Positions 1-17,434 of a DNA stretch of 64,000 nucleotides are shown here, piece after piece. The number at the start of each line of letters is the position of its first letter. Position 1 is the first letter of the stretch. Position numbers and translations under genes: made by a program. The notes below the pieces were generated by a model that saw only the letters and a program-made list of their open reading frames with translations, had not been told where the DNA came from and searched no databases. The stretch spans positions 1,798,001 through 1,862,000 of the forward strand of contig NZ_CP082362.1 of assembly GCF_020740535.1 (NCBI RefSeq). The letters are read 5' to 3'. This DNA comes from Streptomyces profundus. Lineage in GTDB: Bacteria > Actinomycetota > Actinomycetes > Streptomycetales > Streptomycetaceae.

Positions 1-3000
1 CTCGCGGGCGAAGAGGACGGTGCCGCCGCTGGCGCCCAGCAGATCGCGGTGGGCGATCGGCGAGGAGCCGCGCAACTCCACGTCGGCCGGCACCCTGAGG
101 TGGCCGTCGACGCGGTACCAGCCGGCCGGCAGGTAGACGATGCCGCCGCCGTCGGCCGAGGCCGCGTCCAGCGTCGCTTGGAGGGCGTCGGTCGCGTCCG
201 TCTCGGGCAGCACGCCCACGCCGCGCGGGGCGTCCGTCACCTGGAGCACGCCGCGCTCGGCCCTGGGGGTGGTGGCGGGCTCGTAGGCGGGGGCCTCGCC
301 CGGGAGTTCGTAGACGGTGCCGCTGGTGGGGCCGACCAGTTCGGTGTCGGTGAGCTTCACATACAGCTCGCCCCGGTTCTGGACGGACGCCTCGCTGCCC
401 TCCAACACGCTGTCGACCAGGCCGAAGCCCCAGCGGGAGGTGAAGTCGGCGGTGCGCACGGCGATATCGGTGTCGCGGACCTCCGTCCGCACGAGGGAGC
501 CGGCGAAGTTGATCCGCTGGCCCTCCACCACGTCGATGCCGATCCGGTAGTCGGCGACGCCGATGTCGATGAACTCGTCCCACTCCAGGTCGCCCAGGAC
601 GAGCCCGGTGCCGTTGGCGCGGGTCCAGGCGTCGAGCGCGGCGCGCTCCGGCGGGTCGTAGGCGGTGGGCGCCTCGGCCCAGAAGCGGTTGTTGAGGTGC
701 ACGTTCTGCCAGGTGCCGACGTCGGCGCCGTTGTAGGCGCGGACGCCCTCGAAGAGCGCGGTGCCCTGGATGTCGCGCAGCGTGGTGGACTCGTGGGTCT
801 GGCCGCCGGACGGGGCCTCGCCCTGGTCGCTTGGCATGGTGGAGATCCCGATGCCCCGGTAGGAGTTGAGCAGGGTCACCTCGGCGACGGTGGCCATCAT
901 GTAGTTCTCGTTGCCGATCCAGGCCCGGCCCGGGATCTCGAAGGTGTGGTTGTAGGGGACGGGCTCCGCCGCGCTCTGGTTCGGGTAGTAGGTGCTCACG
1001 CCGATGACGCCGGCGCTGCCGCCGATCCGGAAGAGGCTGGGCCCGTCGTCGCCCGGCGCGAGATCGGCCAGCAGGACGGTGCCCAACTCGGCGTCCGCCT
1101 GGCCCAGGTAGTCGGGGTTGCGGTCGCCGCGCACCGTGCAGAAGGCGTGCACCTCGATGGTGTCGGTGACCAGATAGCTCCCCGACGGCAGCCAGACGGT
1201 GCCGCCGCCGGCGTCCACGCAGGCGTGGACGGCCCGCTGGATGGCGTCCGTCGAGTCCCGTTCACCGGTGGGGTCGGCGCCGAAGTCGGTGGCGTCGAAG
1301 TCGGCCACGATCCAGTCGTCGGTGGGGAACTCCGTCTCCACCAGCCGGGGTTCGGGGGTGACCACGCGCTCCTCGCGGATCTCGAACTCGGTGACGGTCT
1401 GCCGGGTGGCGCCCTCGCCGTAGCCGTGCAGGGCGACCCGGACATGGCGGGCGTCGACGGTGTCGAACCGCACCCGGACGCCCCGGTCGGGCCCGGTGCC
1501 GCCGCCCTCCCTGACGTCGGTGAACTCCTCGCCGTCGAGGGAGGTCTGGACGGTGAACGCGGACGGGTAGCGGTCGGCGAAGGAGAGCCGCACGTCGTTG
1601 ACTGGCGTCGCCTCGCCCAGGTCGACGGTGAGCCACTCGCCCTGCCCGGCCTCGGAGCTGTGCCACGCCGTGTCGAGCGAGCCGTCGACGGCCGCCTCCG
1701 GCGCCGCACCGCTGCTCGCGGTGATCGCGGCGCCACGGGCCAGGTTGGTGCTGTGGGCGGTGGCCTGGGCGGCGGTCAACTCCTGGTGCAGGGTGCGCAG
1801 CGCGTCCTTGGCCCGCTCCTCCGTGGTCGCGGGGTCGTCGGCGACGGCGCGGGCCGTGTCGATGACGGCGCGCAGCGCGTCGCGGGTGCCCGGCGGGTAC
1901 TGGCCGTCCCGGTCGCCCTCGCGGACGGTGCCGAGCACCCGTTCGGCGTGGTCGAGGTGGCGGAGAAGTCCCGCGGTGGGCTCCAGGCCGTCGGCGAGCA
2001 CCGCGATCCGGACGGCGGCCACGGTGAGTTGGACGTCGTCCCCGCCGCCGGGGGCGAGGCGGAAGTCGTTGTTGTTGGCGCGGTTGGTGAGCTGTGCGTC
2101 GTCCAGCGCGAAGGTGTGGGTGAGCCACTCGCCGGTGCCGCCCTGCCGGGCCGGGTCCGCCGCCTTGAACGCGGCCTCGGGGGAGTCGTACTGCAACTCG
2201 ACGCTGCCGGGGCCGTCGTCCAGGTAGTCCACGCTGACCAGCGTCTGCCCGGTCACCGCGTAGGCGTGGGTGTCGGCGACATTGGCGTAGAAGTAGGTGG
2301 TGCCGGCGGCGCGGTCGGTGCGCCAGTAGGTGCGGCCCTCGTGGTCGCCGGTGACCAGGCCCGCCGCGTTGTCGCCGGCGGTGAAGACCACCCGGTCCCC
2401 GCTGGGCGCCGGGCCCAGCGTGGCGTTGGCGCCCGCGATGCCCATCCGGACGGCGGCGACGGTGATATCGGCCGGTTCGCCGCCGTCCTCGCCGGAGAGC
2501 CGGAACGAGCCGTCCGCCTCGGGTGGCAGCTCAAGGGCCGCGGTGCGCCAGCCGTCCTCGCCCGCGACCGGCAGCCGCAGTTCGGCGTCGCCGCTGTTCA
2601 GCAGCAGCTCGTCGGCCCCGGTGTCCCGGTAGGTGACGCTGACCACCCGGGACGCCGCCTGGGGCAGCGCGGCCAGCCACTCGTCGTCGGCGGTCAGCGC
2701 CAGGTGGTCGGTGCCGGCGGCCAGGTCGGTCGCCCAGTAGCCCCGGCCGTCGAACTCGCCGGTGACCAGCCCCTCCTCGTTCTCCCCCGCCGTGGCGGCC
2801 AGGCCCAGGGTGGTGGCCTCGGGGCCGAGGTCGGCGCCGACGCCCTCCGGGTACATCAGCAGGCCGACGGGGTCCGCCTCCGCCGGTGTCGAGCCGGCCG
2901 GCTGGGCGTGGGCGGCCGGCAGCGGGCCGACCAGGGCAAGGCCCAGCAGCGCCACGGGGACGGTGCGGCGGAGCCTGGCCCTCGATCTCCTAGGGAAACT

Positions 3001-3015
3001 CACTGACAGGGGCAC
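1..3015 (-). CDS. Secreted multidomain right-handed beta-helix protein (GH55/pectate-lyase-like), 3' end outside window
   Basis: Partial gene: the 3' end lies beyond position 1, so at least 1004 residues. The first GTG (3015) has GGAGG six bases upstream; a second in-frame GTG lies at 3003. The product opens with a signal peptide (Arg-rich start, hydrophobic VALLGLALVG, cleavage near AHA-Q). Two similar beta-sandwich modules follow (about 35-165 and 165-310), each with a GxYWxTDxAAGT motif. Then come a helical FIVAR-like segment (about 340-420), an F5/8 type C (discoidin) module (about 425-545) and a beta-helix region opening with DFGADPTGERDSTDAIQ. A second such opening (DATDALQATLD...GGGIVYLP) lies near 920. 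Two tandem helix starts recall GH55 beta-1,3-glucanases, but I cannot assign a substrate. The start overlaps the end of the mannosidase gene, implying translational coupling. It probably acts on extracellular polysaccharide. Confidence 0.8.
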   Translation of the reverse strand, partial: MPLSVSFPRRSRARLRRTVPVALLGLALVGPLPAAHAQPAGSTPAEADPVGLLMYPEGVGADLGPEATTLGLAATAGENEEGLVTGEFDGRGYWATDLAAGTDHLALTADDEWLAALPQAASRVVSVTYRDTGADELLLNSGDAELRLPVAGEDGWRTAALELPPEADGSFRLSGEDGGEPADITVAAVRMGIAGANATLGPAPSGDRVVFTAGDNAAGLVTGDHEGRTYWRTDRAAGTTYFYANVADTHAYAVTGQTLVSVDYLDDGPGSVELQYDSPEAAFKAADPARQGGTGEWLTHTFALDDAQLTNRANNNDFRLAPGGGDDVQLTVAAVRIAVLADGLEPTAGLLRHLDHAERVLGTVREGDRDGQYPPGTRDALRAVIDTARAVADDPATTEERAKDALRTLHQELTAAQATAHSTNLARGAAITASSGAAPEAAVDGSLDTAWHSSEAGQGEWLTVDLGEATPVNDVRLSFADRYPSAFTVQTSLDGEEFTDVREGGGTGPDRGVRVRFDTVDARHVRVALHGYGEGATRQTVTEFEIREERVVTPEPRLVETEFPTDDWIVADFDATDFGADPTGERDSTDAIQRAVHACVDAGGGTVWLPSGSYLVTDTIEVHAFCTVRGDRNPDYLGQADAELGTVLLADLAPGDDGPSLFRIGGSAGVIGVSTYYPNQSAAEPVPYNHTFEIPGRAWIGNENYMMATVAEVTLLNSYRGIGISTMPSDQGEAPSGGQTHESTTLRDIQGTALFEGVRAYNGADVGTWQNVHLNNRFWAEAPTAYDPPERAALDAWTRANGTGLVLGDLEWDEFIDIGVADYRIGIDVVEGQRINFAGSLVRTEVRDTDIAVRTADFTSRWGFGLVDSVLEGSEASVQNRGELYVKLTDTELVGPTSGTVYELPGEAPAYEPATTPRAERGVLQVTDAPRGVGVLPETDATDALQATLDAASADGGGIVYLPAGWYRVDGHLRVPADVELRGSSPIAHRDLLGASGGTVLFARE

Positions 3016-6000
3016 GGACTTCCTCCCGGTTCCTGGGGGACGGAGTGAGCCGAACAGTGCGGATCTCGAACGGCCGGAGCCGCAACGGGATCGCGGGGTG
3101 GTGCGGGTGGATCGGGTGGTGACCTTCCGGGTTCTCCAACAGATCGCAGTCGGCGGCCCGGGCGAGGGGGAAGGCGGGGGTGAGGGTGGCGCGGGCGGCG
3201 CCGCCATGGGCCTCGTAGAGGCGCACGACCAGATCGCCCGAGCGGTCGTCGGCGAGCTTGACCGCCTCGATCACCACCTGGTCGTTGTCGACCGCGACCA
3301 GCGGCGCGACGTCCACCGCGCCGGGGCGGGCGCGCGGCGGGAGGTTGAGGTCGTAGCCGCCGGCGAGCGCGGCGGCCAGATCGGCGCCGGGCTCGATGGC
3401 GTAGGCGAAGCTGTGCCGCCCCCGGTCGGCCTGGGGGTCGGGGCTGTGCGGGGCGCGCAGCAGGCTGAGCCGGACGGTGGTCGTGGTGCCGCCGTCCTCG
3501 GGCCTGGTGTCGCGGGCGATGTCATGGCCGTAGGTGGAGTCGTTGAGGACGGCGGCGCCCCAGCCGTGCTCCCCGACATGCAGCCAGCGGTGCTGCCACA
3601 GCTCGTAACGGGCCGCGTCCCAGCTGGTGTTGGTGTGGGTGGGGCGGCGCACATGGCCGAACTGGATCTCGGCGCTCTCGTGCTCGGCGTGGATGTCCAG
3701 CGGCCAGGCGGCCTTGAGCACGGTGTCCCGCTGCTGCCAGTCGATATCGGTGCGCACCGTCAACCTGCGGCTGCCGGCGACCAGTTCGAGGTGCTGCGTC
3801 AGCCGGGAGGCGCCGAAGGCGCGCGCCACCCGGACGACGGCCAGCCGCGGTCCCGCGTCGACGAGGGTGACCGACTCGGCCAGGTCGAGGTCCTCGACGA
3901 CCTCGCGGTAGGAGCGGTCGATGTTCCAGGCGCTCCACCTGGTGGGGTGGTCCGGGTGGATCTGGAGCAGGTTGCCGGCCGCGCCGGGGGCGATGGTCTC
4001 CCGGTCGGCGGCCGGATCGTAGAGCGAGGTGACCAGGCCCCTGGCGTCGATCCGCACCCGCACCAGCCCGTTGTCCAGCAGCACTTCGCCGTCCGCGTCG
4101 GTGACCGTGACCGGCGCGGGTGCCGGGGCGGGCGCCGATGCGCCGGCGCCGAGCGCCGGCGCGCGGGCGGGGAGCGCGATCCGGCCGTCGGCGAGCCGCT
4201 GCGCCCCTGCGGGCGCGGGGGAGCCGGCCGGGAGCACGGCGACGCCGGTGCGGTCGAACGGGCCGGCGTTGAACACGGTGACCGCGTCGCCGGCGTCCTG
4301 GTCGGGGACCAGCGCGGCGAGCGCCTGGCCGATGATCCGCTCCAGCTCGGCGTGGATCTCGCCGTAGAGCTGCTCGGCCTCGCGGTGCACCCAGGCGATG
4401 GAGGTGCCCGGCAGGATGTCGTGGAACTGGTTGAGCAGCACCCGCCGCCACAGCTCGCTGAGCCGCTCGTACGGATAGGCGAAGCCGGCCGTCAACGCGG
4501 CCGTGGCGGACCAGAGTTCGGCCTCGCGCAGCAGCGACTCGGCGCGCCGGTTGCCGCGTTTGGTGCGGGCCTGGCTGGTGTAGGTGCCCCGGTGCGTCTC
4601 CAGATACAGCTCGCCGCGCCAGACGGGGAGCCGTTCGTCCCGCTCCTCGTACTCGGCCCTGGCCTCGGCGAAGAAGGCGCCCGGGTCGGAGAGGCGCACC
4701 CGGGGCGAGCCCTCCAGATCGCGCAGCCTGGCGGCGCGCTCCAGCATCTCCCGGGTCGGGCCGCCGCCGCCGTCGCCGAAGCCGAACGGGGCCAACGAGT
4801 GTCCCGCCGTCGCCTTGTCGGCGAAGTTCCGCTCGGCGTGGGCGAGTTCGGCGCCCGTCAGCTCGGCGTTGTAGCTGTCGATGGGCGGGAAGTGGGTGAA
4901 GATCCGGGTGCCGTCGATGCCCTCCCAGTCGAAGGTGTGGTGCGGCAGCCGGTTGGTCTCGTTCCACGACAGCTTCTGGGTGAGGAACCAGCGGGCGCCC
5001 GCGAGGGTCGCCAGCTGGGGGTAGGCGGCGGTGTAGCCGAAGGAGTCGGGCAGCCAGACGCCGTCCGTCGTGACGCCCAGCTCCTCGGCGAAGAAGCGCC
5101 GCCCGTACACGAGTTGACGGGCCAGCGCCTCACCGCCCGGGAGATTGCCGTCGGCCTCCACCCACATGCCACCGACCGGCACCCAACCGCCGTCGGCCAC
5201 CGCCCGCTTGATCCGTTCGAAGATCTCCGGGTAGCGCTCCTGGATCCACGCGTACTGCTGGGCGGACGAGCAGGCGAAGACCAGCCCCGGGTACTCCTCG
5301 GCCAGCGTGGTCATGTTGGCGAAGGTGCGGGCGCACTTGCGGACGGTCTCGCGGACGGGCCACAGCCAGGCCGAGTCGATGTGCGCGTGCCCGACGGCGT
5401 GCACGGTGTGCGCCGAGGCGTGCGCGGGGCTGGCCAGCGCGGGGGCCAACGCGCGGCGGCCCAGCGCCGCCGTCCCGGCGACATCCGTCGGATCCACGGC
5501 GTCCATGGCGCGTTCCAGGGCGCGCAGGACGCGGTGGCGGCGGGGTGTCTCGGGCGGGAGCTGGCGCATCAGCTGGTCCAACACCTCGATGTCGTGCAGC
5601 AGATGCCAGACGTCGTCCTCGCGGACGGCGATCTCGGCGACTTCGAGGCGGTAGAGCGGCTCGTCCCCCGCGGTGGCCCGGTCGCCGTAGTGGGTGTTCC
5701 GGCCCGCGCTGCCGACGATCGGCGGGTTGGCGGCCAGCTCGACCAGCAGCTCGACGGGCTCGCCGCCGGCGGCGGACCCGGCGAGCAACACGGTGCGGTG
5801 ATAGGGGTGCAGGCCCTGGAGCGGGGTGCCGGACGCGGTGTGCACCAGGCCCTCGGCCTGCCCGCCTGGCCCCTTGGCGTAGTCGAAGCCGAGGTCGAAC
5901 ACGGCCTCGACGCGGCGCCCGGCCCAGTCGGCCGGGACGGTGGCCGCGGCCCGCAGCCAGGTGGTGGCCCAGGGGCCGCCCCAGGACTCGCCGTGCCGGA

Positions 6001-6166
6001 ACGGCTCGTAGGGGGCCGTCAACGCCTCCCGCACCGGCACCGGTTCGCCCGGCGCCCGCCAGACCGTCAGCGCGAACGGCACCCTCGGCCCGTGGAGGGC
6101 CGGGCGCAGCCGCTCGGCGAGGAAGACGGCGACACGTTCCTCGATCAGCCGTCGGTTGTCATGCAC
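2990..6166 (-). CDS. GH38 alpha-mannosidase (copy A)
   Basis: 1058 residues, the normal length for bacterial class II alpha-mannosidases. The zinc-site motif VGHAHIDSAWLWP is near residue 260 and the nucleophile motif LPDSFGY near 370. The block around FLTQKLSWNETN, the DGGGGPTREM motif and the C-terminal beta-sandwich are also typical of GH38. No signal peptide is visible, so it should be cytoplasmic, trimming alpha-mannosides taken up by the cell. It starts 2 bp after the DUF2264 stop and overlaps the beta-helix gene, so the three genes form one tight operon. A paralogue lies at 10727-13795; the two share the whole domain plan but have clearly diverged. The family assignment is secure. The linkage specificity (alpha-1,2, 1,3 or 1,6) cannot be read from sequence. 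Confidence 0.95.
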   Translation of the reverse strand: MHDNRRLIEERVAVFLAERLRPALHGPRVPFALTVWRAPGEPVPVREALTAPYEPFRHGESWGGPWATTWLRAAATVPADWAGRRVEAVFDLGFDYAKGPGGQAEGLVHTASGTPLQGLHPYHRTVLLAGSAAGGEPVELLVELAANPPIVGSAGRNTHYGDRATAGDEPLYRLEVAEIAVREDDVWHLLHDIEVLDQLMRQLPPETPRRHRVLRALERAMDAVDPTDVAGTAALGRRALAPALASPAHASAHTVHAVGHAHIDSAWLWPVRETVRKCARTFANMTTLAEEYPGLVFACSSAQQYAWIQERYPEIFERIKRAVADGGWVPVGGMWVEADGNLPGGEALARQLVYGRRFFAEELGVTTDGVWLPDSFGYTAAYPQLATLAGARWFLTQKLSWNETNRLPHHTFDWEGIDGTRIFTHFPPIDSYNAELTGAELAHAERNFADKATAGHSLAPFGFGDGGGGPTREMLERAARLRDLEGSPRVRLSDPGAFFAEARAEYEERDERLPVWRGELYLETHRGTYTSQARTKRGNRRAESLLREAELWSATAALTAGFAYPYERLSELWRRVLLNQFHDILPGTSIAWVHREAEQLYGEIHAELERIIGQALAALVPDQDAGDAVTVFNAGPFDRTGVAVLPAGSPAPAGAQRLADGRIALPARAPALGAGASAPAPAPAPVTVTDADGEVLLDNGLVRVRIDARGLVTSLYDPAADRETIAPGAAGNLLQIHPDHPTRWSAWNIDRSYREVVEDLDLAESVTLVDAGPRLAVVRVARAFGASRLTQHLELVAGSRRLTVRTDIDWQQRDTVLKAAWPLDIHAEHESAEIQFGHVRRPTHTNTSWDAARYELWQHRWLHVGEHGWGAAVLNDSTYGHDIARDTRPEDGGTTTTVRLSLLRAPHSPDPQADRGRHSFAYAIEPGADLAAALAGGYDLNLPPRARPGAVDVAPLVAVDNDQVVIEAVKLADDRSGDLVVRLYEAHGGAARATLTPAFPLARAADCDLLENPEGHHPIHPHHPAIPLRLRPFEIRTVRLTPSPRNREEVRAPVSEFP

Positions 6167-6168
6167 GA

Positions 6169-8190
6169 TCAGTGGCTCTCCGTTGGATTGACCGACGAAC
6201 TGGCCGTCGGACCGGCCGGCGTCCGCGATACGGATGGCAGCCGGACGACGTCATGGGCGCCGTCCGGCCAGTCGAGGGTGACTATGTCGGTGCCAGGGCC
6301 GGTGGCGATGCCGCCCTCCGAGGCGAGGGACAGCGCCGGCAGGGCGGCGAGGTCGAGCCGCTCGTCGCCCAGGTGTGCCGCCGCCGCGTAGATCTCGCCC
6401 AGGCGCACCGGGCCGCCGCTGGTCAGCACGGGGGTGGCGGAGCGCGGCCCCAGCGGGTTGCTGTCGGCGTGCCGCCGCACCAGCGGGTGGCCGAGGCCGC
6501 GCAGCGCGACCAGGCTGGACACCAGCCCGTTCGACCCGGTCACCCGCGCCCTGGCGCCGACGGTGTCCCGGCGGGTCCAGCCGCTGCCCGCGTCCGTCAC
6601 CGGCAGCGCCCAGCCGCCGAACCGCAGCGTCAACGGGCGGTCCGGGTCGGTGGGTTCGGCCGGGTCGACGCGGGCGATCCGGACCTCGACCGCGCCGCGC
6701 AGCGCGGAGGCCACGGTGATCCAGGGGCCGAGCCGGTACGCCGTCTCGGGCCCGCCGAACGGGTCCCACTCCTCGTCGGCCGGCCAGTGCGCGCGGCTGC
6801 GGGAGACGCCGACGCCGTTTCTGACGCTGATCCGGGTGAGCGGTCTGCGGTGGGCCGCGAACCCCTCCTCGTCCAGCAGCGTGACGGTGGAGTCCAGCGG
6901 GCCGCCGGACGGGTCGGCCGGCATCTCGGGCGCGGTGTGGGTGGAGTACCCGAGCCGGGCGTAGGCCGGGTCGTCGGAGGCGAACCGGGCCGGATCGGCG
7001 TGGTCGCTGCCGTGGTTGACCACCCGCACCACGCCGTCCCGCGCGGTGCCGGACACCAGCCAGCCGGGGGCGGCGAGGGTGCGGGCGAAGTCGCCGCGCT
7101 CCACCGGGAGCGGCTCGTCGGGGGCCGTCCACACCGGGTGGTCGGCGGGCAGCAGCAGCCCGGCGAAGCCCTTGCTCGCCCAGTACGGCGAGGCGGGCCC
7201 CGAGTACACCTGCCGGATGCGGGGGAAGGGGTGGTGCCAGCCCAGGGTGAGCAGGCCCTCGCCGTCGACCGCGCCATGGCCGAGGAAGTGCCGCAGCGCT
7301 CCGCCGGTGAGCCGTCGGGTCAGCCCCGGCGGGTAGGGCGTGGCGTCGAACAACTCCCCGGCCCAGACGGGCGCCAGGGTGGCGAAGCGGTAGGTGAGCG
7401 AGCGCCCCTGGATCAGCGGGGACCCGTTGGCGCCGACCAGACGCGCGTGGTCGTCGAGGAACCGCCGCAGCCGCTCCCGGTAGTGGTCGAGGCGCCCGGG
7501 TGGCGCCGCTTCGCCGAGGATCCGGCAGAACCACAGCGGGTAGAAGTGCATCGCCCAGCCGTTGTAGTGGTCGTAGTTGCGGTGGGCGCCGCCGGTCAGC
7601 CCGTCGCTGTACCAGCCGTCGCCGGTGTACCACTGGTCGGTGAGCGCGATGGTGCGCTCCAGGTCCTCGGCGCGCCAGGGGCCGCCGGCCGCCCGGCTGA
7701 ACGCCTCGGTGACCGCCTGGAACCAGATCCAGTTGTTGCCCGGCATCGGGTCGCCGACCATCTCGCCCAGCCAGGCGAGGAGTCGGGCCCGAGCGGGGTC
7801 GGTCAGCCGGTCCCAGATCCAGGGGCGGGTCTCGTGCAGGGCGATGGCGATGGAGGCGGCCTCCACCTTGGCCTGGTTCCGTTCGGCGAAGGTGGGCCAG
7901 CGCTCGGGGCCTTGTGGATCGACCCCGGCGGTGAGCCCCTCCGCGTACCACTCGGCGAGGCCGAGCGGGTCCGCGCCGCGCGCGCCGGCCAGCCGGAAGG
8001 CGGCGAGCAGGAAGGTGCGGGCGAAGCCTTCGAGCCCGTCGCTCCAGCGGCCGTTGGCGCTGGGCGGCCCCGGCAGGTGGATCTGGGCGCGCCGCTCGGT
8101 GGCGTGGGGCCGAACGGCGAGCAGCAGCCGGTCGGCCGTCTCCTCCCAGACGGCACGGGAGGACGTCTCCCGGTCGTCGAGTGTGCTCAT
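6169..8190 (-). CDS. DUF2264 domain protein, probable glycan-active enzyme
   Basis: 673 residues, matching the usual DUF2264 length. The N-terminal two thirds looks like an (alpha/alpha)6-type fold: SDGLEGFARTFLLAAFR near 50, GNNWIWFQAV near 150, the aromatic run YDHYNGWAMHFYPLW near 210. A beta-rich C-terminal part follows. No signal peptide is visible. From memory, DUF2264 proteins have been placed in a glycoside hydrolase family (GH154, beta-glucuronidase-like); I could not check this, so the substrate is open. It is the first gene of the operon with GH38-A and the beta-helix protein. The ATG at 8190 follows an AAGGGGGA ribosome site, and a good promoter lies about 30-60 bp upstream (8221-8250). 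Confidence 0.85.
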   Translation of the reverse strand: MSTLDDRETSSRAVWEETADRLLLAVRPHATERRAQIHLPGPPSANGRWSDGLEGFARTFLLAAFRLAGARGADPLGLAEWYAEGLTAGVDPQGPERWPTFAERNQAKVEAASIAIALHETRPWIWDRLTDPARARLLAWLGEMVGDPMPGNNWIWFQAVTEAFSRAAGGPWRAEDLERTIALTDQWYTGDGWYSDGLTGGAHRNYDHYNGWAMHFYPLWFCRILGEAAPPGRLDHYRERLRRFLDDHARLVGANGSPLIQGRSLTYRFATLAPVWAGELFDATPYPPGLTRRLTGGALRHFLGHGAVDGEGLLTLGWHHPFPRIRQVYSGPASPYWASKGFAGLLLPADHPVWTAPDEPLPVERGDFARTLAAPGWLVSGTARDGVVRVVNHGSDHADPARFASDDPAYARLGYSTHTAPEMPADPSGGPLDSTVTLLDEEGFAAHRRPLTRISVRNGVGVSRSRAHWPADEEWDPFGGPETAYRLGPWITVASALRGAVEVRIARVDPAEPTDPDRPLTLRFGGWALPVTDAGSGWTRRDTVGARARVTGSNGLVSSLVALRGLGHPLVRRHADSNPLGPRSATPVLTSGGPVRLGEIYAAAAHLGDERLDLAALPALSLASEGGIATGPGTDIVTLDWPDGAHDVVRLPSVSRTPAGPTASSSVNPTESH

Positions 8191-8220: not shown

Positions 8221-8250
8221 TATGTAAATTCAATGGATTGTCTAAGTCAA
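8221..8250 (-). promoter_or_regulatory. Promoter with overlapping operator for the DUF2264-GH38-beta-helix operon
   Basis: On the minus strand TTGACT (8250-8245) and TACATA (8226-8221) are 18 bp apart, giving a leader of roughly 24 nt before the ATG at 8190. The spacer holds a perfect palindrome, CAATCCATTG. The promoter of the second mannosidase (10691-10720) matches at 23 of 30 positions, including all of TTGACTTA and TCCATTG. This is an A/T-rich island in otherwise very GC-rich DNA. I infer a repressor site read by one of the two ROK regulators. Confidence 0.7.
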
Positions 8251-8389
8251 TGCTCCGCGCCCGGAAATCTCGCCGACTCCCCCACGCCTCCGGGGTCGGC
8301 GCCCCCAAGGAGGCGGGCAAAGCGGGCAGTTGTCCCTTCCGCCCCGGCGGGAGGTGGTCAATTAGTACTTTTACAGGGGGTGGTGGAAG

Positions 8390-10582
8390 GTGTTGGATGG
8401 ACCCATGCATGACCTTCCGGAACTCCCGCTCTCCGAGACGGCGCGGCAGGCGCTCCTCAACTGGGCGGCCGGGCGCGAGGATCGCGAGGTGCGCGCCCGC
8501 ATCATCCTGGACGCCGCCGACGGCGTCTCGATCTCGGACAGCGCCCGCGCCCTGGGCATCTCCCGGCCCACCGTCACGTCCTGGCGCGCCCGCTACACGG
8601 CCCAGGGACTTGAGGGCCTTGAGCACCGGCCCCGCAGCGGCCGACCACCCCGCATAGACGAGGCGGATGTGATCGCCGCGACGCTGGCGGGCCCGCCGGC
8701 CCCCCGTCGCTCCTGGTCCGCGCGCGCCCTCGCCGACCATCTGGGCATCTCGCACACGGCGTTGAGCGCGGTGTGGCGGCGCTGGGGCGTCGACGGCGAG
8801 ACGTTCTCGCCGGTCACCGTGCCCACCGACCCGCCGCTGCGCTGGGAGCAGCCGCTGCTGCTCGGCATCTGGCGGGACGCGGAGGCCGCCGTCCTGGTGG
8901 TGGCCGAGCGCGCGCCCGAGGCGCGCCGGGCGGGCGCCCCCGCGCCGGCCGCCGAGCGCACGGCGCGCGGCGCGGCGCTCGCGGCGGAGCTCTCGCTGCC
9001 GCGCGCCAGCCGGCTACGGGTGTCGGCGGAGGGCCGCGCCGAGCTGGCCGCCCTGCTGCACACCGTCGCCGACGGCGCCTCTCGCGTCGGCCCCTCCCGG
9101 CTGCTGGTCTGGGATCCGGGCGGCGACCTGGCCGGGTCGGGGCCCAGGGTCGGCGACGAGACCTGGCATCTGGCCGCCGACTCCATGAGCTGGTCCGCGA
9201 CCCTGAGCGCGATCTGCTCCCTGGAGCTGCTGCACTCCCCCACGACCGCGCGCCCGATGCTGGACTCCCTGCTGGACGCGCTCCGTTCGGACCGCTCGGT
9301 GTGGCGCCGGCCCGACGAGGGCGCGGCGCCAGGGCCCCCGCCGCGCACCCCGCGCGCCTTCGACCAGCTGGCCCTCGGCTCGTTCAACGAGAAGCTGGTG
9401 ATCGGGAGCATCAGGGAGGCCGGCGCGCTCAGCCGGGTGGAGATCGCCCAGCGCACCGGGCTCACCCCGCAGGCGGTTTCGCGCATCACGCGCAACCTGC
9501 TGACCTCCGAGTTCCTCGTGGAGGACGTCCATCGGCCGGCGGGCAAGGGGAAGCCCAGGGTGCCGCTGCGGCTGCGCGCCGACGCCGCGCACGCCATCGG
9601 CATCCATCTGGACCCCGAGATGATCACCCAGGTCGTGGTGGACCTGTGCGGCGGCGTGGTGGCCAGGCGGCAGCTCTCGCTGCACGAGCGGCGCGATCCG
9701 GAGTGGGTGATCGCGCAGGTGACGCGGATGGCCCAGGAGGCCATCGCGGAAGCCCGTCCGGCCTCCGATCCGCTGCTCGGCGTCGGGGTCGCGGTGCCGG
9801 GCCCGCTGGACGCCGAGGCCGGCGTGATCAGGAACCCCCCGCTCTTCGACGGATGGCACGACGTCCCGCTGCGGGAGGAGTTGGCCGAGCGGCTGGGCAT
9901 TCCGGTGGTCCTGGAGAAGGACGTCACGGCGGCGGCCATCGGCGAACGCTGGATCGGCGCCGTCGAGCGGGCGGGCGACTTCGTCTACCTCTATCTGGGC
10001 GCCGGCGCCGGCTGTGGTGCCTTTCTCAACGGCGATGTCTACCGGGGACGCACCGGCAATGCCGGGGAGTTCGGCGAGCTGTGCGCGCTGAGCGTGGGCC
10101 GGCTGACCGACGAGGGCGGCCCGGCGATGGTGGCCGAGTGCGCGCCGATCCCCACGGTGGTGGCGCGGGCGGCGGCGGCCGGGATCGTCGGCGCCGACGA
10201 TCCGGCGGCCTACGAGCGGGCCTGCGCCGCCGCCCTCGCCGGGGACGAGAGCGCGCTCTCGATCTTCCGCTCGGTGGCCCGGGTGGTGGCCAGGGGCGCG
10301 GTCGGCGTGACGGATCTGCTGGACACCGCGCTGCTGATCGTGGGCGGCCCGGCCGTCCGGCCCGAGGTGACGGAGCTGTTCCTCGCGGAGATCGACACGG
10401 CGGTCAACCGCTTCCCGGTGGCCAGCGACATCCGCCGGGTGCGGGTGGCGCACTCGCTGCTCAACGAGTCGGCGGCGGCGGTGGGCGCGGCGTCCAGCGT
10501 GTTCCACGCCGTCTTCGCGCCCCGGTTGCGCACCCACATCACCCCCCTGGGGGGTCAGGACATTCCCCTTGACGGCAACTAA
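8390..10582 (+). CDS. Fusion regulator: degenerate IS630-type transposase joined to a ROK family repressor
   Basis: 730 residues, almost twice a normal ROK repressor. Residues ~15-80 are an IS630-type helix-turn-helix (RARIILDAADGVSISDSARALGIS...GLEGL followed by RPRSGRPP). Residues ~90-135 are the second winged helix of such transposases (SWSARALADHLGISHTALS..WRRWG). Residues ~138-308 follow the order of the DDE domain, but the first acidic position reads VAE instead of VDE (172-173) and the SWLNQVE block reads SWSATLS (267-273), so catalysis is probably lost. From ~325 a full ROK protein follows: winged helix (LSRVEIAQRTGLTPQAVSR), sugar-kinase fold, VAVPGPLD, GAGAGCG and NAGEFGE. The kinase-type cysteine zinc motif is absent. 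The GTG at 8390 and an ATG at 8405 are alternative starts. It is divergent from the DUF2264 operon and upstream of GH38-B, whose promoters share an operator. Confidence 0.85.
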   Translation: MLDGPMHDLPELPLSETARQALLNWAAGREDREVRARIILDAADGVSISDSARALGISRPTVTSWRARYTAQGLEGLEHRPRSGRPPRIDEADVIAATLAGPPAPRRSWSARALADHLGISHTALSAVWRRWGVDGETFSPVTVPTDPPLRWEQPLLLGIWRDAEAAVLVVAERAPEARRAGAPAPAAERTARGAALAAELSLPRASRLRVSAEGRAELAALLHTVADGASRVGPSRLLVWDPGGDLAGSGPRVGDETWHLAADSMSWSATLSAICSLELLHSPTTARPMLDSLLDALRSDRSVWRRPDEGAAPGPPPRTPRAFDQLALGSFNEKLVIGSIREAGALSRVEIAQRTGLTPQAVSRITRNLLTSEFLVEDVHRPAGKGKPRVPLRLRADAAHAIGIHLDPEMITQVVVDLCGGVVARRQLSLHERRDPEWVIAQVTRMAQEAIAEARPASDPLLGVGVAVPGPLDAEAGVIRNPPLFDGWHDVPLREELAERLGIPVVLEKDVTAAAIGERWIGAVERAGDFVYLYLGAGAGCGAFLNGDVYRGRTGNAGEFGELCALSVGRLTDEGGPAMVAECAPIPTVVARAAAAGIVGADDPAAYERACAAALAGDESALSIFRSVARVVARGAVGVTDLLDTALLIVGGPAVRPEVTELFLAEIDTAVNRFPVASDIRRVRVAHSLLNESAAAVGAASSVFHAVFAPRLRTHITPLGGQDIPLDGN

Positions 10583-10690: not shown

Positions 10691-10720
10691 TTGACTTACT
10701 ACATCCATTGGCTTTTCATA
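10691..10720 (+). promoter_or_regulatory. Promoter/operator of the second GH38 gene, leaderless
   Basis: TTGACT (10691-10696) and TTCATA (10715-10720) are 18 bp apart. Transcription should begin about 7 bases after the -10, which is the ATG at 10727, so the mRNA is probably leaderless. The spacer carries ACATCCATTGG, the same core as in the promoter at 8221-8250 (23 of 30 positions identical overall). This fixes the start of the gene at 10727 and argues against the in-frame upstream extension. Confidence 0.75.
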
Positions 10721-10726
10721 ACGGTC

Positions 10727-13700
10727 ATGCACCGTGACCCCGCCCTTATCGAACGACGCCTCCACCGCGTGCTCACCCAGCGTCTGATCCCCGCCGTACA
10801 CGCGCACGGCATCCCGCTCGACATCGGGGTGTGGCCCGTGTCCGGCGAACCCGTGCCCGTCGCCGAAGGGCTCGGGGCGAGCTACCGCCCCGTCTCCGTC
10901 GGCCACCGCTGGGGCCCCGCCTGGTCCACCTGCTGGTTCCGCGTCAGCGGCACCGTGCCGCCCGAGTGGGCCGGGCGGCGCGTCGAGGCGGTCCTCGACC
11001 TCGGCTTCGACGCCACCAAGGCCGGCTTCGCCGCCGAGGGGCTCGCCTACCGCGCCGACGGCTCGCCCGTCAAAGCGCTCAACCCGCGCAACGCCTATCT
11101 CACCGTGGCCGAGGAGGCCGTCGGCGGCGAGGAGTTCGTCTTCTACGTGGAGGCCGCGGCCAACCCGCTGATCCTGGACGACGGCCCCGGCGGCGTGCCC
11201 TTCCTGCCCACCCGCTCCGGCGACCGCGCCCCCTGGCTGGGCGAGGGCTCCGAGGGCGGCGACGGCGAGGCCGGTGAGGCGGGTGAACCGATCTATCGGC
11301 TGGCCAGGGCCGAGCTGGCCGCCTTCGACCCGGACGTCTGGGAGTTGACCCAGGACCTCGACGTGCTGGGCGGCCTGCTGGCCGAGCTGCCCGCGGAGGA
11401 CACCCGCCGCTGGCAGCTGCTGCGCGCCGTGGAGAGCGCCCTCGACGCCGTCGACCTGCACGACATCGCCGGCACGGCCGCCGAGGCCAGGCGGCGCCTC
11501 GCCCCCGCGCTGGCCGTCCCCGCCGTCGAGGGCGCGCACCGGATCTCCGCCGTCGGCCACGCGCATATCGACACCGCCTGGCTCTGGCCGCTGCGCGAGA
11601 CCGTCCGCAAGGTGGCGCGCACCGTCGCCAACGTCACGTCGCTGATGGACGAACACCCCGAGTTCCGCTTTGTGATGTCCCAGGCGCAGCAGCTCGCCTG
11701 GCTCAAGGAGCACCGCCCCGAGGTCTTCGCGCGGGCCGTGGAGAAGGTGCGCACCGGGCAGTTCCTGCCCGCCGGCAGCCTCTGGGTGGAGCCGGACACC
11801 AACATCACCGGCGGCGAGTCGCTGGCCCGCCAGTTCGTGCACGGAAAGCGCTTCTATCTCGACGAGTTCGGGATCGAGACCGAGGAGATGTGGCTGCCCG
11901 ACACCTTCGGCTACAACGCGGCGCTGCCGCAGCTGATGAAGCTGGCCGGGGTGCGCTGGTTCCTCACCCAGAAGATCTCGTGGAACACCACCAACGACTT
12001 CCCGCACCACACCTTCTGGTGGGAGGGCATCGACGGCACCCGGATCTTCAGCCACTTCCCGCCCGTCGACAGCTACAACGCCGAGCTGTCGGGGCGCGAG
12101 ATCGCCCACAGCGAGCGGAACTTCCGGGACAAGGGCCTGGCCAACCGCTCCCTGGTGCCCTTCGGCTACGGCGACGGCGGCGGCGGGCCGACCCGCGAGA
12201 TGCTGGGCCGGGCCGCCCGGCTCGGCGACCTCGCCGGCTCGGCCCGGGTCGACATCGAGGGCCCGGCCGAGTTCTTCGCCAAGGCGCACGAGGAGTACGG
12301 GGAGAGAGCGCCCGTCTGGGTGGGCGAGCTGTATCTGGAGCTCCACCGAGGCACCCTCACCAGCCAGTTGGCCACCAAGCAGGGCAACCGCCGCGGCGAA
12401 CACCTGCTCCGCGAGGCCGAGCTGTGGTGCGCCACGGCCACCCTGCGCACCGGCGCCGACTACCCCTACGAGCGGCTCGACCGGCTCTGGAAGACCGTCC
12501 TCACCCACCAGTTCCACGACATCCTGCCGGGCTCCTCCATCGCCTGGGTCCACCAGGAGGCCGAGGAGACCTACGCCGAGGTCGCCGCCGATCTCGGCGA
12601 GCTGATCGACGGAGCGCAGCGCGCCCTCGCGGGCCCCGCCGACACCGGCGGCACCCTGGTCTTCAACGCCGCGCCCCACGCGCGCGGCGGCGTCCCCGCG
12701 CTGGGCGCGGGCCCCGCGCCCGCGCCCGCGGCGCCCCGGCCGCTCGCCGACGGCGCCCCGTTCGTCCTGGACAACGGGCTGCTGCGGGTCACCGTGGACG
12801 AGCGCGGCCTGGTCACCTCGATCCACGACATCGCGGCGGACCGCGAGGCGGTCGCCCCGGGATCCGCCGCCAACCTGCTCCAGCTGCACCAGGACTTCCC
12901 CAACCAGTGGGACGCCTGGGACGTCGACAGCTTCTACCGCAACGCGGTCACCGACCTCACCGAGGCGGACGAGGTGACGCCGACGCCCGACGGCGGCGTG
13001 CGGGTGGTCCGCACGGTGGGAGCGTCCCGGATCGAGCAGACGCTCACGCTGCCGGCGGGCGTCCGCCGCCTGGACATCGACACATCCGTGGACTGGCGGG
13101 AGCGCGAGCGGCTGCTCAAGGTGGCGTTCCCGCTCGACCTGCGCGCCGAACTCTCGCGCGGCGAGATCCCGTTCGGCCACACCCCGCGTCCCACGCACAG
13201 CAACACCAGCTGGGAGGCGGCCAAGTTCGAGTTCTGCGCCCACCGCTACCTCCAGGTCGAGGAGCCGGGCTTCGGCGCCGCGCTGGTCAACGACTCCACC
13301 TACGGGCACGAGGTGACCAGGGACGTCCGGGCGGACGGCGGCTCCACCACCACGCTGCGGCTCTCGCTGCTGCGCGGCGCCCGCTTCCCCGATCCGGAGG
13401 CGGACCTGGGGCACCACCGGCTGCGGTACGCCCTGGTGGTGGGCGCCTCGCTCGGCGACGCCATCCGCGAGGGCTACCACTTCAACCTGCCGGAGCGCCG
13501 GATCCCCGGCGACCGGCCGGTGGCGCCGCTGGTGTCGCTGGACAACGACGCCGTGGTGATCGAGGCGATCAAGCTGGCCGACGACGGCTCGGGCGATCTG
13601 GTGATCCGGCTCTTCGAGTCCCTCGGCGGTCGCGCCACCGCGCGGCTCACCACGGACTTCGCCGTCGCAGGCGCCGCCGTGACCGACCTGCTGGAGCGGC

Positions 13701-13795
13701 CGTCGGCCGACGAGCCGACGCCGGACCTGGCCCGTCTCTCGCTGCGGCCGTTCGAGATCCGCACGCTGCGGCTGACCCCGGCGGCGCGCGGCTGA
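10727..13795 (+). CDS. GH38 alpha-mannosidase (copy B)
   Basis: 1022 residues from the ATG at 10727. That start is supported by the promoter spacing and by alignment with copy A (both begin MH..., then xLIExR). The zinc motif VGHAHIDTAWLWP is near residue 280 and the nucleophile motif LPDTFGY near 390. SWNTTNDFPHHTF, GDGGGGPTREM and the C-terminal STYGHEV..RPFEIRTLRLTP blocks are all conserved. No signal peptide is seen, so it should act in the cytoplasm. An acidic insert (GEGSEGGDGEAGEAGE, near 170) is absent from copy A. No ribosome site precedes the ATG, as expected for a leaderless mRNA. Having two GH38 enzymes under related promoters suggests they cleave different alpha-mannosidic linkages of the same glycan. 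Confidence 0.95.
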   Translation: MHRDPALIERRLHRVLTQRLIPAVHAHGIPLDIGVWPVSGEPVPVAEGLGASYRPVSVGHRWGPAWSTCWFRVSGTVPPEWAGRRVEAVLDLGFDATKAGFAAEGLAYRADGSPVKALNPRNAYLTVAEEAVGGEEFVFYVEAAANPLILDDGPGGVPFLPTRSGDRAPWLGEGSEGGDGEAGEAGEPIYRLARAELAAFDPDVWELTQDLDVLGGLLAELPAEDTRRWQLLRAVESALDAVDLHDIAGTAAEARRRLAPALAVPAVEGAHRISAVGHAHIDTAWLWPLRETVRKVARTVANVTSLMDEHPEFRFVMSQAQQLAWLKEHRPEVFARAVEKVRTGQFLPAGSLWVEPDTNITGGESLARQFVHGKRFYLDEFGIETEEMWLPDTFGYNAALPQLMKLAGVRWFLTQKISWNTTNDFPHHTFWWEGIDGTRIFSHFPPVDSYNAELSGREIAHSERNFRDKGLANRSLVPFGYGDGGGGPTREMLGRAARLGDLAGSARVDIEGPAEFFAKAHEEYGERAPVWVGELYLELHRGTLTSQLATKQGNRRGEHLLREAELWCATATLRTGADYPYERLDRLWKTVLTHQFHDILPGSSIAWVHQEAEETYAEVAADLGELIDGAQRALAGPADTGGTLVFNAAPHARGGVPALGAGPAPAPAAPRPLADGAPFVLDNGLLRVTVDERGLVTSIHDIAADREAVAPGSAANLLQLHQDFPNQWDAWDVDSFYRNAVTDLTEADEVTPTPDGGVRVVRTVGASRIEQTLTLPAGVRRLDIDTSVDWRERERLLKVAFPLDLRAELSRGEIPFGHTPRPTHSNTSWEAAKFEFCAHRYLQVEEPGFGAALVNDSTYGHEVTRDVRADGGSTTTLRLSLLRGARFPDPEADLGHHRLRYALVVGASLGDAIREGYHFNLPERRIPGDRPVAPLVSLDNDAVVIEAIKLADDGSGDLVIRLFESLGGRATARLTTDFAVAGAAVTDLLERPSADEPTPDLARLSLRPFEIRTLRLTPAARG

Positions 13796-13852: not shown

Positions 13853-15046
13853 CTATCGCAGGAGCAGGGACTGGGGGCGCGCCGAGAGCGTGCGGTCCAG
13901 CACCAGGCAGGCGGCCCCCACCGCGCCCACGTCCTCGCCCACCCCGGTGCTGGTCACCTTCGTGGGGTGGATCTTCTTCACGAACGGCGACTGTTCCACC
14001 ATGTCCGGGATGATCCGCAGGAAGCGCTCCCGGAGATGGGTCCAGATCGGTCCGCCGAAGACGATCAGCTCCGCGTCCACCAGCGTCGCGGCGGCGGCCA
14101 CCCCCCGGCCCACCCGCACCGCCCAGCGGTCGATGATGTCGCCGGCCGTGGCGTTCTCCTCGGCCAGCCGGCTCAGCTCGGCCAGCCCGCGCTCGGCGTC
14201 CCGGGGGCCGAGCGGGGTGAACTCATGGCCCAGCACGCCCAGTTGGATGCCCTCGTCGACCATGGCCCGGGTGGTGCAGGCCGCCCCGAGCCCGCCGACC
14301 TCGCCGGCGTTGCCCGACACGCCGCGCAGCACCGTGTCCTCGACGACCAGGCCCATGCCCGACCCGGTGCCCAGATAGAAGAAGAGAAAGTTGCCGGTGT
14401 CGGTGGCCGCGCCGGCCCAGTGCTCCGCCGTCGCCGCGGCGATCACGTCCTTGTCCAGCAGCACGGGCAGGCCGGTCTCCGCGCTGAGGAAGTCCCGCAG
14501 CGGCACCCGGCCCCAGCCCTCCAACTCCGGCGGATCGACCACCAGACCAGCGGACATGTCCACCGGCCCAGGGGCGGCGATCCCCACGCCCAGGATCCGC
14601 TCCCTGGGCACCCCGGACTCCTCGATCAGCGTCTGGAGCGAGGCGCTGATGCCGGCCAACGTGTGATCCGGGTCGGCGACGCGCGGCGTGGGGGTGCGCA
14701 GCCGGGTCACCACCCGCCCCAGCAGGTCGAGCACCACATAGGTGATCACCGCTGGATCCAGATGCACCCCGACGGCGAACCTGGCCTCCGGGCTGACCTG
14801 GAGCAGGGTCCGCGGCTTGCCGGTGCCGCTGCTCTTCTTGCCCGTCTCCCGCGCCAGTCCGTGGTCGAGCAGCCGGCGGCAGATGTTGGAGACGGTCTGC
14901 GCCGACAGGCCGGTGGCCCCGGCCAACTCCACCCGGCTCAGCCCCTCGGGCACCCGACGGATCGCGTCCAGCACCACGGACTCGTTGAAGTCGCCCATAC
15001 GTGGCAGGTTGGTGCCGCGCCGGATCGTCAACTGCTGCCTGCCCAT
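13853..15046 (-). CDS. ROK family transcriptional repressor
   Basis: 397 residues, normal for ROK/NagC-XylR type repressors. The N-terminal winged helix is at about 20-75 (LSRVELAGATGLSAQTVSNICRRL). The sugar-kinase-like part has VGVHLDP, GIAAPGPVD, LDKDVIAAATAEHW, YLGTGSGMG and GNAGEVGG. The Cys-rich zinc motif of true ROK kinases is missing, as in the fusion regulator, so a regulatory role is likelier than glucokinase activity. The ATG at 15046 has GGAGG about nine bases upstream. It sits between GH38-B and the GH71/99-like gene, so I expect it to sense a sugar released from the glycan and to control this island, possibly through the CCATTG-type sites. The ligand is unknown. Confidence 0.9.
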   Translation of the reverse strand: MGRQQLTIRRGTNLPRMGDFNESVVLDAIRRVPEGLSRVELAGATGLSAQTVSNICRRLLDHGLARETGKKSSGTGKPRTLLQVSPEARFAVGVHLDPAVITYVVLDLLGRVVTRLRTPTPRVADPDHTLAGISASLQTLIEESGVPRERILGVGIAAPGPVDMSAGLVVDPPELEGWGRVPLRDFLSAETGLPVLLDKDVIAAATAEHWAGAATDTGNFLFFYLGTGSGMGLVVEDTVLRGVSGNAGEVGGLGAACTTRAMVDEGIQLGVLGHEFTPLGPRDAERGLAELSRLAEENATAGDIIDRWAVRVGRGVAAAATLVDAELIVFGGPIWTHLRERFLRIIPDMVEQSPFVKKIHPTKVTSTGVGEDVGAVGAACLVLDRTLSARPQSLLLR

Positions 15047-16159: not shown

Positions 16160-17434
16160 ATGGCAGTCTCGCGCCGCACCTTCGTCACCACGGCGCTCGC
16201 CGTGCCGGCGGCGGGCGCCGTGTTCGGCACGGCCTACGCCCAGGCGACCTCGACCGACGAGGCCGAGCCCCGGAACGTCAGGGCGCGCGCCAGCGAACCT
16301 GGCGACGTCGTCGGCAAGATCACCACCGGCTACCAGGGCTGGTTCGCCGCCGCGGGCGACGGCTCCCCCATCGACGCCTGGTGGCACTGGGCGCCGGACA
16401 TGGGGCAGACGCCGTCGCCCAGCAACAACGGCATCATCAGCTGGCCCGACATGCGGGACTACGAGACCGGATACCAGACGGACTTCCCCGCGCTGGGCAA
16501 CGGCCAGCCGGCGACGCTCTTCTCCAGCCACGACGACCAGACGGTGGACACCCACTTCCGTTGGATGGCGGAGAACTCCATCCACACGGCCGCGCTGCAA
16601 CGCTTCAACCCCAACGGGCACGAGGGCCCCACCCGCGACGCGATGACGGAGAAGGTCCGCGCCGCGGCCGAGGCCCACGGCGTGCGGTTCTACGTCATGT
16701 ACGACATCACGGACTGGTTGGCGATGCGGGAGGAGATCACCGTCGACTGGACGGAGAAGATGTCCGCCCACACCGAATCCCCCGAGTACGCCCGGCAGAA
16801 CGGCAAGCCGGTGGTGGGGATCTGGGGCCCTGGCTTCGCCGACGAGAAGCGGCCCTTCACCCCGGACGAGTGCCTGGAGGTCATCCGGTGGTTCCAGGAC
16901 CAGGGCTGCTATGTGATGGGCGGGGTGCCCACGCACTGGCGCAGCGGGGACCGTGACTCCCGGCCCGGCTTCGAAGAGGTCTACCTGGCCTTCGACATGC
17001 TCTCGCCGTGGATGGTCGGCCGGCTGGGCACCGTCGAGGAGCTGGACGCGTTCTACGAGTCCAACCTCCTGCCGGACCAGCGGGAGTGCGACGCCGCCGG
17101 CATCGACTACCAGCCGTGTGTGATGCCGGGGAACCTCCAGGAGGGGCACCGGGCGCATGGCGACTTCATGTGGCGCATGTTCTACAACACCGTCCGAGCG
17201 GGGGCCCAGGGCCTCTACATATCGATGTTCGACGAGTACAACGAGGGGAACCAGATCGCCAAGACCGCCGAGACCAGCGCGGACGTGCCGGCCGGGGAGG
17301 ACTTCCTGGCCCTGGACGAGGACGGCACGCCCTGCTCGGCCGACTACTACCTGCGGCTGACCGGCGACGGCGGGCGGATGCTCGCCGGCGAGATCGAACT
17401 CACCGAGACCAGGCCGACCCCACCGGTCGTCTGA
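16160..17434 (+). CDS. Secreted GH71/GH99-like glycoside hydrolase
   Basis: 424 residues. A twin-arginine signal (SRRTFVTTALAVPAAGAVFG, cleavage near AYA-Q) opens the protein, so it is probably Tat-exported. The mature part starts with KITTGYQGWFAA and DAWWHW, then SHDDQTVDTHFRWMAENSIHTAALQRF, GVRFYVMYDITDW, KPVVGIWGPGF and the late MFDEYNEGNQI with two acidic residues. This is the pattern of the GH71/GH99-like TIM-barrel group, which includes endo-alpha-mannanases and endo-alpha-mannosidases. I infer an alpha-linked polysaccharide substrate. With the two cytoplasmic GH38 enzymes, outside endo-cleavage followed by inside exo-trimming is a reasonable model. GGAAGGA lies 9 bases before the ATG. 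No promoter is evident in the 52-bp gap upstream. Confidence 0.8.
   Translation: MAVSRRTFVTTALAVPAAGAVFGTAYAQATSTDEAEPRNVRARASEPGDVVGKITTGYQGWFAAAGDGSPIDAWWHWAPDMGQTPSPSNNGIISWPDMRDYETGYQTDFPALGNGQPATLFSSHDDQTVDTHFRWMAENSIHTAALQRFNPNGHEGPTRDAMTEKVRAAAEAHGVRFYVMYDITDWLAMREEITVDWTEKMSAHTESPEYARQNGKPVVGIWGPGFADEKRPFTPDECLEVIRWFQDQGCYVMGGVPTHWRSGDRDSRPGFEEVYLAFDMLSPWMVGRLGTVEELDAFYESNLLPDQRECDAAGIDYQPCVMPGNLQEGHRAHGDFMWRMFYNTVRAGAQGLYISMFDEYNEGNQIAKTAETSADVPAGEDFLALDEDGTPCSADYYLRLTGDGGRMLAGEIELTETRPTPPVV

Follow-up and report, generated by a model that had tools for sequence, protein, structure and literature searches.

The gene at 8390–10582 on the plus strand encodes, in one open reading frame, an IS630-type transposase N-terminus followed by a complete ROK regulator, as the initial annotation had proposed. 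We think it reasonably likely that the product is a ROK repressor of alpha-mannoside catabolism, in which a captured and dead IS630 transposase would serve as an added DNA-binding module. The gene lies in a window of 64,000 nucleotides (G000:C1:1798001–1862000) of a 7.65 Mb genome, G000. It starts at GTG 8390 or at the in-frame ATG 8405, giving 730 or 725 residues, and the shorter form corresponds to the protein-database entry P0002.

The N-terminus carries two helix-turn-helix (HTH) domains of the IS630 type, HTH1 at 8462–8644 (residues 25–85) and, with the linker before it, HTH2 at 8645–8797 (residues 86–136). The middle region at 8798–9334 (residues 137–315) probably derives from the IS630 catalytic region, remodelled and catalytically dead. 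The winged HTH (wHTH) of the ROK part (MarR_2, 9389–9517, residues 334–376, Pfam E 1.2e-8) stands directly before the ROK domain (PF00480, 9599–10495, residues 404–702, Pfam E 1.3e-31), and all these segments are on the plus strand. According to the Pfam analysis, HTH_29, HTH_28, HTH_23 and HTH_32 match within residues 31–128, and the stretch 136–320 submitted alone matched no Pfam family. The NCBIfam IS630 model (NF033545) matches residues 35–135 with 75–78 bits, below its cut-off of 100, and it matches all of the 42 fusion N-termini scanned. These matches confirm the IS630 nature that had been assigned to both N-terminal HTHs. By its domains the fusion protein is a ROK regulator with a predicted response to a sugar ligand, and it is not an IS630 transposase.

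The N-terminal alignment was scanned against one genome per species, and 66 loci were obtained. Nine of them (L109, L120, L122, L123 and L125–L129) were counted as non-fusions, and 57 remain. The ROK motif is in the same open frame as the IS630-type N-terminus at 48 of the 57, counting L081 and L091, which are interrupted or have masked bases. Seven of the remaining nine loci reach a contig end, in L102 the ROK part lies in a different frame, and at L106 ROK was not matched. By tblastn, the ROK part was detected at 49 loci (the 48 in-frame loci and L102). At L102, L106 and L081 the fusion gene is broken or interrupted. As the same frame is kept at 48 of the 57 loci, the junction is not an artefact. 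In this genome scan the fusion loci belong to Streptomyces, Actinacidiphila, Streptacidiphilus, Catenulispora and Actinospica. A protein search with residues 1–330, restricted to proteins of about 400–1280 residues and to the 7,999 candidates with the most words in common, gave 50 proteins of 660–961 residues, each with a precomputed ROK domain (50/50), and Nonomuraea fusions are among them. The recorded proteins of the Nonomuraea fusions P0050 and P0051 start after HTH1.

The dN/dS ratios were estimated by a simple counting method against five orthologues. They are 0.15–0.27 for residues 1–128 (the HTHs) and 0.43–0.87 for residues 129–305 (the middle region), both in ATG numbering, 0.06–0.28 for the linker and wHTH, and 0.23–0.32 for the ROK domain. 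By this estimate both N-terminal HTHs are under purifying selection. The proposal that the fusion is conserved and selected is borne out by the HTH ratios and by the 48 in-frame loci in five genera.

A tree of the ROK domains was calculated without rows of fewer than 300 aligned residues and without rows with stops or masked letters. Three rows were labelled as fused by hand, L082 and L124 (N-terminus matched by tblastn) and L006 (cut by a contig end, with the middle region visible). The 51 fused domains stand on one side of a branch and the 23 non-fused domains on the other, with an SH-aLRT support of 100 by a quick method. Within the tree, subfamily I (15 rows, support 98) and subfamily II (36 rows, support 100) form two groups. 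In a tree of the HTHs (117 columns), both fusion subfamilies stand together against the IS630 and standalone proteins (95/83). Because the fused ROK domains separate from the non-fused ones, a single fusion probably took place early in the history of the carrier genera. Later transfer of the fusion between genera may have occurred.

The motifs around the catalytic triad are present in 97, 101 and 102 of the 102 IS630 transposases compared. In the window protein, the motifs read VAE at residues 171–173 and SWSATLS at residues 267–273, and in the alignment W241 takes the place of the second catalytic Asp. The catalytic positions are occupied by A172 (aligned by eye with a two-residue gap) or R174 (gap-free hhalign), W241 and S273. 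Among 79 fusion rows, in which the window is counted twice (as P0001 and P0002, which have different starts but are otherwise the same), the three columns hold A/G/T/C, W/F/L and C/G/S/R/A/T/H, and an acid is found in 0 of 79. When the register is relaxed, an Asp occurs within 171–175 in 14 rows and next to W241 in 10 rows, including D242 of the window. No row has both, Glu within 272–274 occurs in none, and any row has at most one of the three acids. The replacement of at least two acids, proposed from the VAE and SWSATLS motifs, thus holds at all three aligned positions. Judged from these columns, the transposase part is catalytically dead and its triad is lost.

Standalone IS630-like proteins were observed in two places. 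L122 (8923–9927), P0052–P0068 and P0070 come from Nocardioides where named, and no DDE_3 domain is listed for them. The D motifs are found in 0 of 18 of these proteins and the E motif in 2 of 18, and L122 matches the window N-terminal residues 22–296 at 33%. These proteins are apparently a separate domestication. In Streptomyces, the standalone proteins L162–L166 have IS630 HTHs about 45–52% identical to those of the fusion, with a decayed catalytic region and lost triad motifs, and they group as a separate clade in the HTH tree.

The profile of the full N-terminus aligns end to end with the 102 IS630 transposases (7–336 against 3–342). The middle region without the HTHs aligns with the IS630 profile over 165–171 columns, scoring 29.6 for subfamily I, 36.0 for both subfamilies and 41.9 for subfamily II. 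Column-shuffled controls of the middle profiles (100 each, 300 in total) gave means of 12.4–13.9 and a maximum of 21.8, and reversed profiles gave 12.9–16.6. From real neighbouring proteins, 32 control segments were prepared. Thirty of them score 21.9 or less (the eight of these printed cover 9–18 columns), and two ROK segments containing the wHTH score 33.5 and 32.0, over 47 columns only. The middle of subfamily I alone (29.6) scores below these two segments, yet its alignment is full-length and in register. An earlier, wider cut of the same middle gave 27.0 over 98 columns only. Against the standalone dead proteins, the middle region scores 27.8 and 23.9 over 166 columns, and the subfamily-II middle 22.1 over 17 columns only. 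The alignment with IS630 includes an H..P..SW block and the C-terminal PFxW motif. W305, which corresponds to the Trp of the IS630 PFxWT motif and immediately precedes the junction region, is invariant across all 79 fusion rows, and PFxWT is present in 100 of the 102 IS630 transposases.

The middle domain was also folded alone by structure prediction (pLDDT 86.6). Foldseek listed no RNase-H or DDE match for this model (best E 1.0), although absence from such a list is not proof. VIA returned no RNase-H match and no family for the middle domain alone, and DDE_3 matched 0 of 41 fusion members. The initial annotation had read the first 310 or so residues as a whole transposase with an RNase-H-like DDE fold. 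The end-to-end profile alignment and the HTHs speak for the first part of this reading; the fold itself was not recognized at residues 137–315 by either Pfam or Foldseek. For this reason the middle region is at best remodelled. Its descent from the IS630 catalytic region is probable, the sole support being the profile–profile comparison.

HTH1 remains close to an intact transposase. In residues 25–82, 32 of 58 residues are identical to the intact IS630 transposase L109, and 13 of 19 in the recognition region. In a fold search with the whole N-terminus, structures of TnsB, Mos1 and Pax top the PDB list, weakly (E 0.013–0.4). The VIA match for the same segment mostly spans residues 8–78, and the viral structure library gave one nameless match below E 0.001. 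In genome G000, NF033545 detects the fusion locus; at two more places it matches weakly, at the level of the HTH (24.4 and 22.2 bits). A DDE_3 search gave no match.

The fusion gene is flanked by GH38 and DUF2264 genes. A GH38 alpha-mannosidase gene (2990–6166) and a DUF2264 gene (6169–8190) lie on the minus strand, the latter divergent from the fusion gene. A second GH38 alpha-mannosidase gene follows on the plus strand (10727–13795, the ATG at 10727 taken from the sequence), and then an ordinary non-fused ROK paralogue with MarR_2 and ROK domains on the minus strand (13853–15046). In the fetched flanks of up to 9 kb, GH38 is present at 53 of 57 fusion loci and DUF2264 at 13 of 57. No GH38 was found in the fetched flanks of L095, L099, L112 and L115. 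Genome G000 has four GH38 matches in its 7.65 Mb, two of them at the fusion locus. At 16160–17434 of the window there is a weak GH99 match (25.6 bits against a cut-off of 33), which would suit an alpha-mannan theme.

Both GH38-side transcription units are preceded by TTGACTTA-N4-ATCCATTG and a CAT-containing presumed -10 element. The palindrome AATCCA-N-TGGATT is located in the spacer between the -35 and -10 elements, both of which are presumed from the sequence. For the DUF2264–GH38 pair, the presumed promoter/operator is at 8222–8250 on the minus strand (TTGAC...AATCCATTGAATT...TACAT), with the palindrome at 8227–8239 (one mismatch). For the second GH38 gene, it is at 10691–10720 on the plus strand, with the palindrome at 10702–10714 (two mismatches). 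With up to two mismatches, the palindrome is present at every subfamily-I locus but L079 (17 of 18) and at 2 of 43 other loci, 39 of the 43 being fusions. Genome G000 has 19 such sites against 5 for a control pattern; two are at the fusion locus, and the site at 8227 is one of only two single-mismatch palindromes in the genome.

The pattern with its promoter context was found in 4 of 343 genomes of the order, beside the fusion in G483 and a non-fused ROK in G493, G421 and G375. In the last three, the non-fused ROK gene adjoins the site and GH38 is nearby. The exact palindrome occurs at nine places in eight of 295 Streptomyces genomes. One is beside a fusion (G128, judged by coordinates), and two are beside non-fused ROKs (G014 and G255). 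At the other six no ROK or GH38 was detected within about 7 kb, and three of these are inside longer hairpins as judged by eye. In total, five non-fused ROK genes with no detectable IS630 part adjoin the palindrome, and GH38 is near four of these genes. L071 has a second perfect palindrome (L071:12388), at the 5' end of a gene whose product contains a PF02826 (2-hydroxyacid dehydrogenase) domain, a possible extra member of the regulon. L095, a subfamily-II locus, also has a perfect palindrome (L095:959), which is distant from the fusion gene.

Near the GH38 genes of subfamily II, no palindrome was found. Within about 70 bases upstream of GH38, the promoter string TTGACTTGATAACAC...TTTTACAT is present at 20 of 28 subfamily-II loci examined (L082–L124), and this string is perhaps the operator of subfamily II. 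Just upstream of the fusion gene in the window, AGTACTTTTAC is located at 8364–8374 on the plus strand, and, with one mismatch allowed, it is also present in this position at 12 of 18 subfamily-I loci. By the same rule it was found at none of the 43 other loci and none of the 5 loci with a non-fused ROK. Three of the 12 loci (L071, L076 and L078) contain an additional copy at another place. The motif may be an autoregulatory site, and equally possibly a part of the promoter. Most of the IS630 copies compared in relatives start with a CTAGTG- or CTAGTC-like sequence at one or both ends. These ends do not clearly resemble AGTACTTTTAC or the palindrome, and they suggest no site.

Two of the alternative explanations concern the origin of the protein. 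A recent chance fusion, a frameshift artefact or a decaying gene without function would agree with the broken copies and with the rarity of subfamily I in Streptomyces, which was found in at least 8 of 295 genomes searched, among the matches listed. The conservation of the fusion refutes this explanation: the in-frame loci extend over five genera, dN/dS is far below 1 in the HTHs and the ROK domain, and GH38 is in the flanks at nearly all loci. We give it practically no weight. It is also conceivable that only a paired-type double HTH is derived from a transposase, and that residues 137–315 were gained in a separate step, as an unrelated domain or linker. The failure of DDE_3, Foldseek and VIA to recognize the middle region is in favour of this, as are its fast evolution and low-complexity inserts. 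Such an origin is nevertheless unlikely. The profile alignment is collinear over 165–171 columns and scores above the shuffled controls; the H..P..SW block and the PFxW motif, with its invariant W305, are aligned; and IS630-like standalone proteins with lost triads exist.

The other alternative concerns the operator. If the IS630-derived HTHs, not the ROK wHTH, recognized the GH38 operator, the near restriction of the palindrome among fusion loci to subfamily I and the well-kept recognition region of HTH1 would be accounted for. However, the five ROK genes in which no IS630 part was detected also carry this palindrome, set in the same promoter context, and subfamily II has the IS630 HTHs with no palindrome near its GH38 genes. 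We therefore regard this assignment as very unlikely. Since the non-fused ROKs share the site, the palindrome is probably read by the ROK wHTH. Of the two kinds of target suggested in the initial annotation, transposon-end-like DNA and sugar-responsive operators, the second has a candidate in the sugar-gene site, which would probably belong to the ROK wHTH.

For the repression, the inducer and the assignment of each HTH to a site, we infer the following scheme. An IS630 transposase would have been fused, probably once, to a ROK repressor of the flanking GH38 and DUF2264 genes. Loss of the catalytic triad from the transposase part would have gone along with remodelling of its catalytic domain into a fast-evolving scaffold, with the two IS630 HTHs retained as a second DNA-binding module. 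A dimer of the ROK wHTH on AATCCA-N-TGGATT, between the -35 and -10 elements, would block the GH38-side promoters, and binding of a mannose-derived inducer to the ROK domain would lift the block. A second, putative site, perhaps upstream of the fusion gene itself, would be bound by the IS630 HTH pair, leading to autoregulation or bridging. A more elaborate version is possible, though doubtful: the ROK wHTH would sit on the alpha-mannosidase promoters and the IS630 HTHs elsewhere, and the dead catalytic domain would pair two copies, as transposases pair transposon ends, to form a sugar-controlled DNA loop. If this is true, the end-pairing machine of IS630 has been turned into a switch of metabolic genes.

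In animals, host regulators that captured the DNA-binding part of a transposase have been described. Here, a jumping-gene protein has seemingly been built into an ordinary metabolic switch. The fusion occurs in several actinobacterial genera, in one gene neighbourhood, and its candidate operator is clear. Sister regulators that are not fused but have this operator provide natural controls. Thus, the contribution of the captured transposase is directly testable in a Streptomyces. The initial annotation knew of no regulator with this layout, and we also found no described counterpart among the papers listed from the literature searched, which leaves most subscription journals outside. By their titles, the papers listed on domesticated IS630 elements are reviews or concern eukaryotes. 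Within the same literature, we found no described case of a bacterial DDE transposase captured by a host regulator.

NagC and Mlc are encoded beside or before sugar-catabolic genes and have a palindromic site in the promoter, and the fusion locus is alike. NagC, Mlc and XylR have one N-terminal HTH, whereas the fusion protein has about 310 more residues with two transposase-type HTHs. The order of a wHTH followed by the ROK domain is common to the fusion and to the ROK repressors NagC, Mlc, XylR and RokB of Streptomyces coelicolor (for RokB, PMC4856308). With the IS630/Tc1-mariner transposases, the fusion protein shares the two HTHs with a GRP-type linker, a collinear catalytic-type region and a PFxW-like end. 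Unlike them, it has no triad, its middle is not seen by Pfam or Foldseek, a ROK part is attached, and its genome has no DDE_3 match.

Pax domains are among the cases in which a transposase DNA-binding part is found in a host regulatory protein. In the eukaryotic fusions SETMAR, CSB-PGBD3 and KRABINER, such a part is likewise joined to a host regulatory protein (PMC12062965, citing Cosby et al. 2021). The present fusion differs from these three in being bacterial, in having a domain of the sugar-sensor type and in residing in one catabolic gene neighbourhood. TldR is a nuclease-dead TnpB. The TldR proteins are bacterial transcriptional regulators derived from TnpB, in which a transposon protein became a regulator (PMC13418256). 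Unlike the fusion protein, TldR is RNA-guided, is not derived from a DDE transposase and has no fused sugar sensor. Among regulators co-opted from mobile elements, Ner/SfsB is a case in which an HTH protein of such an element was recruited to control sugar genes (PMC8987985). Ner/SfsB is a reused phage repressor, whereas here a transposase is joined to a host regulator. By its domain composition, the protein fits the wider idea of a host–transposase fusion, in which a transposase-type DNA-binding part is in frame with a host regulatory domain and is kept by selection.
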